Shown piece by piece: positions 5,711 to 10,622 of a stretch of DNA of 64,000 bases. The DNA comes from Dermatobacter hominis (GTDB lineage Bacteria; Actinomycetota; Acidimicrobiia; Acidimicrobiales; Microtrichaceae), in the NCBI RefSeq assembly GCF_020715685.1, contig NZ_CP085840.1:124001-188000 (forward strand), read 5' to 3'. Below the pieces are notes generated by a model that had not been told where the DNA came from, searched no databases, and saw nothing but the letters and a program-made list of their open reading frames with translations. A program made the position numbers and the translations under genes. The stretch's first letter is position 1; every line of letters begins with the position of its first letter.

Positions 5711-5721
5711 CACCCCGCCCT

Positions 5722-5776
5722 CCCCGTTTCTGACGCCACAGGGTGGGCCCTGTGACGCAGGATCGACACGAGAACC
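5722..5776 (+). repeat. 55-bp interspersed repeat, copy A (solo)
   Basis: Begins CCCCGTTTCTGACGCCAC and ends GATCGACACGAGAACC. It matches copy C (10524-10578, reverse strand) at 51 of 55 positions and copy B (9349-9403) a little less well. It lies between pdtaR and polA, about 40 bases before the polA promoter. It has no coding content. Confidence 0.9.
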
Positions 5777-8530: not shown

Positions 8531-9322
8531 GTGACCGAGCCCGACCGCCACTGGTTCGAGGACATCGCGGACCACGTCGGCCCGGCCTACCTCCGGTACT
8601 CGTTCACGATGGGCACCGAGCAGGAGGTCGCCTTCCTGGTCGAGCTGCTCGGGCTCGAACCCGGCATGCGGGTGCTCGACGTCGGCTGCGGGCCGGGTCG
8701 CCACGCGATGGCGCTGGCCCGGCGGGGGATCGAGGTCCTCGGCGTCGACATCAGCGAGCGCTTCGTCGAGGTGGCCGTCGAGGTCGCCGACCGGGAGGGC
8801 CTGTCCGACCTGGCGCGCTTCGAGCGGGCCGACGCCCGGGCCATGCAGGGCGACCCTCGGTTCGACGCCACGGTGACGGCGGAGCCCGGGTTCGATGCCG
8901 CCATCTCGCTCTGCCAGGGCGCCTTCGGGCTGGGCGGGCCGCCCGACGTCGGCGACCCGCAGAACCTCGGCGCCGACACCGCCGTGCTGGCCGGCATCGG
9001 GGCCGCGCTGCGGCCCGGCGGGCGCTGCGCCGTGTCGGCGTTCTCGTCGTACTTCCAGGTGCGCTGGCTCGAGGAGACCGACACGTTCGACGCCGCCGGC
9101 GGCGTGAACCACGAGCGGACCGAGCTGCTCGACAGCGAGGGCGCCCGGGCCGAGGCCGACCTGTGGACGACGTGCTACACGCCGCGGGAGCTGCGGATGG
9201 TGGCCGAGCGCTCGGGCCTCGTCGTCGACCACATCTGGTCGGTCACCCCGGGCGGCTACGACATGACCCCGCCGACGATCGACACGCACGAGTTCCTCCT
9301 CGTCGCCCGCACCCCCACCTGA
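8531..9322 (+). CDS. Class I SAM-dependent methyltransferase
   Basis: 263 residues with a Rossmann methyltransferase core: motif I VLDVGCGPGRHAMALA (about 51-66), the acidic loop EVLGVDISERF, and a C-terminal half without further recognisable domains. Substrate unknown. It starts with GTG at 8531, 25 bases after polA in the same direction, so it is probably read with polA. It is not part of the mycobacterial polA-rpsA neighbourhood and so is an accessory insertion here or a lineage-specific neighbour. Confidence 0.85.
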   Translation: MTEPDRHWFEDIADHVGPAYLRYSFTMGTEQEVAFLVELLGLEPGMRVLDVGCGPGRHAMALARRGIEVLGVDISERFVEVAVEVADREGLSDLARFERADARAMQGDPRFDATVTAEPGFDAAISLCQGAFGLGGPPDVGDPQNLGADTAVLAGIGAALRPGGRCAVSAFSSYFQVRWLEETDTFDAAGGVNHERTELLDSEGARAEADLWTTCYTPRELRMVAERSGLVVDHIWSVTPGGYDMTPPTIDTHEFLLVARTPT

Positions 9323-9348
9323 CCCCAAATCCGGTCTCCGACCCCGCA

Positions 9349-9403
9349 CCCGGTTTCTGACGCCATCAGGTGGGCGCGGTGACGCACGATCGACATGAGA
9401 ACC
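9349..9403 (+). repeat. 55-bp repeat, copy B (left inverted end of the DUF559 unit)
   Basis: Same element as copies A and C, seven differences from copy C. Its outer end (CCCGGTTTC) points away from the AbiEi/DUF559 gene; copy C at 10524-10578 is its mirror image on the other side. It lies 26 bases after the methyltransferase stop. Confidence 0.88.
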
Positions 9404-9500
9404 GGCGAGAAGGACCGCCCGGGCGGGCGCTGCCACGCGACGAGCCGGTGGAGCAACGGGGACCGGTCCCCGCTGACAGGGCCGGGCGCCGTCCGTCACC

Positions 9501-10487
9501 GTGCTCGACGTGGCGGACCGGAACCCGAGCACATCACCCGACCTCCGACCCGACGCAGCCGTCGCTCGCCTGGCGGCGACGCAACACGGCCTGATCACCC
9601 GTCGCCAGGTGACGACGCTCGGGATGACGCCCGACATGGTCCGGCGGCGGTTGGGCAACGGGCAGTGGGAGCGGCTGGCGACCGGCGTGTTCACGATCGT
9701 CGGCGTCCCCGACAGCCGGCCCCGCACGCTCTGGGCCTCGGTCCTCCACGCCGGGACGGGATGCGCGATCGCGAGCCACACGGCGGGACGGATCCACGCC
9801 TTCGAGGAGGCGCTCGAGCTCGATGAGGTGCACCTCAACGTCCGCGTCGGCCGCCGCCACCCACCGGAGGGCGTGGTCTGGCACCGGCAGGTCGACATGG
9901 TCGACGACGACGTCGTCACCATCGACGGGCTCCCGGTCACGTCGATCCCGCGCACGGCCTTCGACCTTGCCGGCGACCCCAGGGTCTCGAGGACCCGCCT
10001 GCGCCGCCTCGTCGAGTCCGCGATCGTCCACCGCGGGTTCGAGGCGGCGACGTTCGCCGTCGTGCTCGCCCGTGTCCGTCGCAGCGGCAAGCACGGCGTG
10101 CTCCTGATGGAGCAGGTGCTCGACGACGTCGGACCCGGGACCGATCTGCCGACGACGGAGCTGGAACGCCTCCTGGACGTCGTGATCGAGCTCGCCGGCC
10201 TGCCGGCCCCGGTCCACGAGCACCCGCTCCCCGGCGCCCGGGACCGGGCCGGCTACGTCGACCGGTGCTGGCCCGATGTCCGGCTGGTCGTCGAGGCGGA
10301 CGGACGTCGCTGGCACACCCGCCGCCAGCAGATCGCGATCGACCACGACCGCACGATCGACGCCCAGACCGTCGGCTACCAGACGACCCGGTTCCTCTGG
10401 GAGCACCTGCAGGGCGACCCGGAGGGCTCGGCCCGCCGGCTCCGAGCGATCTACGAGCAGCGCCTCCGGGAGACGGCTGAGCGGTGA
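9501..10487 (+). CDS. AbiEi-type wHTH plus DUF559 (Vsr-like nuclease fold) protein
   Basis: 328 residues. The N-terminus (about 20-75) resembles the winged-helix domain of AbiEi-family antitoxins (AATQHGLITRRQVTTLGM, then WERLATGVFTIVG). The C-terminus (about 235-325) resembles DUF559, a Vsr/PD-(D/E)xK-like fold, with D...VVEADGRRWH as the possible acidic core. Such proteins are common orphan genes in actinobacteria; no AbiEii-like toxin lies beside it. The start is uncertain: GTG 9501 or GTG 9510. The gene fills a unit bounded by inverted 55-bp repeats and splits the polA-rpsA neighbourhood, which suggests it was inserted. Function is not known; a nuclease role is only suggested by the fold. 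Confidence 0.8.
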   Translation: MLDVADRNPSTSPDLRPDAAVARLAATQHGLITRRQVTTLGMTPDMVRRRLGNGQWERLATGVFTIVGVPDSRPRTLWASVLHAGTGCAIASHTAGRIHAFEEALELDEVHLNVRVGRRHPPEGVVWHRQVDMVDDDVVTIDGLPVTSIPRTAFDLAGDPRVSRTRLRRLVESAIVHRGFEAATFAVVLARVRRSGKHGVLLMEQVLDDVGPGTDLPTTELERLLDVVIELAGLPAPVHEHPLPGARDRAGYVDRCWPDVRLVVEADGRRWHTRRQQIAIDHDRTIDAQTVGYQTTRFLWEHLQGDPEGSARRLRAIYEQRLRETAER

Positions 10488-10523
10488 ACCGGCCGACCCG
10501 GCGTCGACGCCGGCGCCGACCCA

Positions 10524-10578
10524 GGTTCTCGTGTCGATCCTGCGTCACACAGCCCACCTGGTGGCGTCAGAAACGGGG
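10524..10578 (-). repeat. 55-bp repeat, copy C (right inverted end of the DUF559 unit)
   Basis: Read on the minus strand it begins CCCCGTTTCTGACGCCAC and ends GATCGACACGAGAACC, like copy A; four of 55 bases differ from copy A. It ends about 45 bases before the rpsA -10 hexamer. Confidence 0.9.
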
Positions 10579-10622
10579 TGGGGGAGCCAGGCGGGGCCTT
10601 TCGGCCGGGGGCGTGGGTCGGG

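Follow-up and report, generated by a model that had tools for sequence, protein, structure and literature searches.

Neither the origin of bacterial palindromic repeats nor the agent that spreads them is settled, and RAYT/REP is the pair with a named enzyme. REPs are reported beside stop codons, often between convergent genes; some classes of palindromic repeat have been reported without a dedicated enzyme, and CGTC-tagged REPs are dispersed palindromes reported without a dedicated transposase (PMC3733652). Inverted repeats are also the means by which the AbiEi protein of AbiE systems is autoregulated (PMC3985639, PMC7319586). DUF559 is a widespread domain of unknown role. The Caulobacter DUF559 protein VsrA has been tied to DNA damage and the DNA-damage response in vivo and damages DNA in the absence of a methyltransferase (PMC12907096), and in Legionella DUF559 segments are recombination hotspots (PMC12308824).

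The window analysed here is a stretch of 64,000 nucleotides from the genome of Dermatobacter hominis. The initial annotation described in it three copies of one 55-bp sequence, two of them mirror images set around a single gene with the same end outward and the third standing alone, and this description agrees with the coordinates (Table 1) and with the complementarity of the repeat pairs (92% and 87%). When aligned, the three copies extend over about 5718-5776 (+), 9343-9403 (+) and 10524-10584 (-). Around the gene both copies have their GTTTCTGACGCC ends outside and GAGAACC facing the gene. The inverted repeat between the 250-nt flanks of this gene scores 37, while the flanks of 163 other called genes of the genome, treated alike, have a median score of 9 and none above 14, and chance origin of the inverted pair is excluded. 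As a separate observation, degenerate tandem units of 19-20 nt (TGACCCCNNACCCGGTTTC), with a stop codon on one side and the repeat on the other, occur at window positions 9321-9360 and again at genome positions 3248385-3248440, as though stepwise duplication of the repeat's outer end had produced them.

Table 1. The repeat-bracketed gene and neighbouring features, in window coordinates
Feature	Position	Strand	Remarks
Solo copy of 55-bp repeat	5722..5776	+	Between ANTAR response-regulator gene and polA
Methyltransferase gene	8531-9322		Part of conserved polA-methyltransferase-rpsA order
Whole module, repeat-gene-repeat	9323..10583		Approximate extent of block absent from same-genus relative G001
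Left copy of 55-bp repeat	9349..9403	+	GTTTCTGACGCC end outward; right behind methyltransferase stop codon
Palindrome GGGGACCGGTCCCC	9458..9471		Candidate operator/promoter element
AbiEi_4 winged-helix + DUF559/MTES_1575 (Vsr-like PD-(D/E)XK) nuclease gene	9501..10487	+	328 aa
Right copy of 55-bp repeat	10524..10578	-	Inverted

Three copies is the correct count for the window; the family is far larger. A search of the 4.66-Mb single contig with the 55-mer, which the initial annotation had proposed, finds the repeat widespread, at 19 intergenic places that together hold 25 near-complete units. The 12-mer GTTTCTGACGCC occurs 25 times in the genome, every time at one of these 19 places, and its reversed (not complemented) control does not occur at all. 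At six places two units form an inverted doublet that measures 111-113 bp between its outer ends, or 123 bp in one case; the doublets give long hairpins of -63 to -82 kcal/mol. Strong folding is confined to the doublets, a single unit being a poor hairpin (z +1). Among the 16 sites outside the window, 8 lie between convergent, 6 between tandem and 2 between divergent genes, and the flanking stop codon is at a median distance of 9 bp; the genes behind these placement statistics were called with our own codon-usage caller. No match to the repeat was found in Rfam, nor were T-tract terminators or sigma-70 promoters found.

The family appears private to this genome. It is missing from 60 relatives, and searches of 84,980 species genomes and of viral contigs returned 10 unrelated single matches and 1 match, respectively, each about the number expected by chance. 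An association of the window repeat with other DUF559 genes was rejected, as none of its 16 other places is near one (the nearest is about 10 kb away). The initial annotation had inferred that the gene mobilises or maintains the repeat and had held that a repeat widespread without association with DUF559 genes would refute this. Taken literally, that is what we find for the window repeat; REPs around a single RAYT behave alike.

The genome carries ten full-length AbiEi/DUF559 genes, the nine others being 25-48% identical to the window gene. All ten are closely surrounded by an inverted repeat pair whose sequence differs from gene to gene, with flank scores of 37, 18, 16, 26, 34, 30, 44, 44, 34 and 48, all above the maximum for the 163 other genes. 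Each of these genes is single-copy in the genome while its own repeat is multicopy, and most of the repeats are self-complementary. One-to-one association of gene and repeat is a matter of observation for ten paralogues. For the nine other repeats, 40 of 221 candidate matches were scored, so the counts of places are lower bounds. At least seven of the ten genes have dispersed families: besides the window repeat, the repeat belonging to the gene at 230.7 kb occupies at least 12 places away from its gene, that of the gene at 2233.6 kb at least 8, and four more have at least 1 to 3 extra places each. In two paralogue families the copies are close to stop codons, at median distances of 1 and 19 bp, and most of them are between convergent genes. 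Dispersal and placement at gene ends are seen directly. The three remaining paralogues showed no distant copies among the candidates scored: one has only the pair, for one only the left copy is reported, and one has a local cluster. This cluster, at genome positions 1591064-1591293, is a tandem array of four units upstream of the gene and is not dispersed. We also note a copy of the 2233-kb family (2238123-2238176) inside a called gene, 2236706-2238593 on the - strand, where it is possibly an in-frame or a disrupting insertion.

The arrangement recurs in other genomes. Among 112 usable homologues from this genome and its relatives, 64 have an inverted flank pair above the 99th percentile of a null in which left and right flanks of different loci were paired; about 1 was expected. 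Repeats shared among near relatives make this null a conservative one. Hairpin z-scores were below -2 for 50 of 64 arms. For the 48 homologues with no pair above the null, possible causes are decay, a misplaced gene start, a contig end or a genuine lack of the pair. A complete genome of the same order was sampled over 400 kb: 3 of its 6 own families had dispersed copies there (E<=1e-8), whereas 0 of 59 families belonging to other genomes did. The same gene-repeat arrangement is found in the Actinomycetes with Tsukamurella tyrosinosolvens (WP_068740572.1), whose repeat recurs at three places of its own record and in two other strain records. The analogy to REP/RAYT systems drawn in the initial annotation gains support from these results, with each of ten genes having its own flanking repeat and the pattern recurring in relatives and in Tsukamurella. 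Similarity between repeats tracks similarity between proteins only above about 70% protein identity, with no correlation below, and co-evolution of repeat and protein is therefore not shown. An AGAAC/GTTCT end tag, recurrent by eye, was rejected because it exceeds shuffles by a factor of only about two (14 versus 7.8), and no common end tag of the GTAG kind is established.

In Proteobacteria and other phyla, inverted palindromes of the CCTCTCCCC..GGGGAGAGG..GTGAGGGG type often flank the short stand-alone DUF559 genes (loci L187-L198 and L199-L227), in Proteobacteria a part of them. This is possibly a parallel system. Since similar repeats in many genomes blur the null for the proteobacterial genes, we treat it as a lead.

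The palindrome upstream of the window gene belongs to a longer motif, GGGGANCGGTCCCCGNTG, which among 300 fetched loci is confined to those carrying AbiEi/DUF559 genes (window 9458-9471; L031-L036, L039, L041-L044, L047-L049, L066). It stands upstream of eight of the ten genes in this genome and of one in G001. Judged by sequence alone it is likely a shared operator or promoter, perhaps bound by the winged helix, which is our inference.

We think it probable that the block at 9323-10583 is a unit of gene plus cognate repeat, resembling a REPtron in its workings and built on an unrelated Vsr-like PD-(D/E)XK nuclease. Its mode of action is inferred throughout. The protein would recognise its own flanking repeat, usually a hairpin-forming palindrome, and would nick or cleave it, the substrate probably being extruded or single-stranded DNA. 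New copies of the repeat would thereby arise in other intergenic positions, for the most part shortly after stop codons. Through the GGGGAYCGGTCCCC operator the gene would probably regulate itself. Every paralogue would serve a separate repeat family, with a complete change of repeat sequence as the proteins diverge. That the protein recognises and spreads its own repeat is the simplest reading of the one-to-one association in ten paralogues; there is no biochemical or genetic evidence for it.

The history of the locus bears on whether the block is instead an IS-like transposon, in which the repeats would be terminal inverted repeats, DUF559 the transposase or part of it, the 112-bp doublets MITEs formed by internal deletion and the solo copies relics. 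The polA, methyltransferase and rpsA genes are consecutive in most of 29 relatives whose flanks were read. The gene had been described as splitting a conserved polA-rpsA neighbourhood; this holds for the repeat-gene-repeat block and fails for the methyltransferase gene, which is part of the conserved order. A DUF559 gene between methyltransferase and rpsA occurs only in the source genome and in one of these relatives, G015. In G001, of the same genus, homology ends where the methyltransferase gene stops, at about 9322, and restarts near 10583, so the comparison of this junction suggested in the initial annotation came out positive: at this one locus the block is absent in its entirety, with an uncertainty of about 25 bp. 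The solo copy before polA is missing from the same intergenic place in both G001 and G015. Such an empty site for the whole block, the inverted pair around the gene and the 111-113-bp doublets with the same outer ends are what a transposon would leave. Target-site duplications, however, are not detectable beyond chance: copies of the window and L046 families share no more flank k-mers than chance would give, and those of the L048 family, on 7 copies, slightly more. The single-copy genes with their multicopy repeats also count against a transposon, as does the near absence of homologues from plasmids (1 of 72,556) and phages (0 of 50,697); no viral homologues of the window protein were found. 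Finally, the orthologue of G015 at the same site, 51% identical and flanked by a different hairpin repeat, suggests an old insertion with loss in G001 and repeat turnover, which is inheritance rather than frequent transposition, although independent insertion in the two genomes is not excluded. We rate the transposon as unlikely.

The protein itself matches the AbiEi_4 profile (residues 21-66), MTES_1575 and DUF559, the PF04480 match being just over the cut-off (20.9 bits against 20.6), and several PADLOC AbiEi profiles. Residues E219, D251, E262, D264, H269, D278 and R281 are conserved in 88-98% of 118 aligned homologues, as expected of a working PD-(D/E)XK nuclease, with cutting itself inferred. 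The closest solved chain is the endonuclease-like protein 3hrl, by weak profile similarity (E=0.006), followed by a weaker resemblance to the mobile-intron protein 3r3p (E=1); a single-sequence AlphaFold model (pLDDT 35) was too poor for structure search. The winged helix and Vsr/PD-(D/E)xK-like domain assigned at first sight are borne out as domains by the profile matches and the conserved active site; for the fold itself there is no more than the weak 3hrl match. A homing-like or guardian nuclease would take the repeats as target or protected sites. The state of the repeat would govern its cutting of chromosomes or invading DNA; the repeats would spread by break repair or be kept because their loss is toxic. 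The likeness to 3hrl and 3r3p and the action of VsrA without a methyltransferase (PMC12907096) fit this. Yet those E-values are weak, and the gene, whose neighbours are the methyltransferase gene and rpsA, has no DNA methyltransferase beside it: the neighbouring enzyme is of the general class I type, and AbiEi/DUF559 genes sit alone. We find this nuclease quite improbable.

There are two further explanations. Selection for transcription termination, insulation or mRNA stability around a potentially toxic gene could have placed the repeats there, with something else dispersing them, as their strong hairpins and placement at gene 3' ends would allow; but terminators have no need to be alike in sequence left and right of a gene, or to differ between paralogues while being shared with distant places, the search for T-tracts was negative and the 163 other genes lack such pairs, which makes this very doubtful. 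A type IV toxin-antitoxin system, in which the protein would be the AbiEi antitoxin and the repeats its operator sites, is scarcely credible, for despite the AbiEi domain and PADLOC matches the protein ends in a DUF559 nuclease, no AbiEii nucleotidyltransferase toxin gene adjoins its gene and the same repeats stand at many unrelated gene ends.

A common uncharacterised nuclease family lying, gene by gene, between copies of its own repeat is a second candidate for a spreading enzyme, and if the gene-plus-cognate-repeat reading is right DUF559 would gain a function. Put more broadly, DUF559/Vsr-like nucleases may be a second, HUH-independent enzyme class that creates and maintains dispersed palindromic repeats in bacteria, fused to AbiEi in Actinomycetota and short and stand-alone with CCTCTCCCC-type repeats in Proteobacteria; we would give this wider proposal an even chance, and if true it could explain part of the palindromic repeats without a known transposase. 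One genome offers ten enzyme/repeat pairs, hence specificity is directly testable. We found no open-access report linking DUF559 to palindromic repeats, and novelty is provisional, with most subscription literature outside the search.

Several known systems share parts of this design. AbiE type IV toxin-antitoxin systems (PMC3985639, PMC7319586) have the N-terminal AbiEi winged helix, while the module has a nuclease C-terminus and no toxin gene. Vsr-like DUF559 endonucleases such as Caulobacter VsrA (PMC12907096) share the nuclease domain and active-site pattern; the module adds the AbiEi winged helix and palindromic repeat partners, and lacks a neighbouring cytosine methyltransferase. Like MITEs and IS elements with terminal inverted repeats, it has inverted end repeats, short non-coding derivatives and, at the G001 empty site, presence or absence as a unit, which is observed at one locus only; it differs in having no target-site duplication and in that the repeat is multicopy and the gene is not. 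CGTC-tagged REPs resemble it as dispersed palindromes without a RAYT, but any palindromes beside the alphaproteobacterial DUF559 genes examined are of the CCTCTCCCC/GGGGAGAGG type and not CGTC repeats, and no link was found by that route. The closest likeness is to REPtrons and TIRtrons (PMC3733652, PMC8266576). There too a single gene is flanked by inverted palindromic repeats that are also scattered over that genome, singly and as inverted dimers, for the most part downstream of genes and between convergent genes; the systems are chromosomal, with several gene-specific families per genome. The module has the bracketing inverted copies, the intergenic dispersal beside gene 3' ends and the inverted dimers. 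Its repeats, at 45-60 bp, lack the GTAG tag of REPtrons (no GTAG/CTAC tetranucleotide at the hairpin foot in the three window repeats), and its enzyme joins an AbiEi winged helix to a Vsr-like PD-(D/E)XK domain in place of an HUH tyrosine transposase. A RAYT partner for the repeats was rejected, with no match to Y1_Tnp (PF01797) in the genome. Since the defining enzyme is absent, the module works like a REPtron but is not a member of that class.
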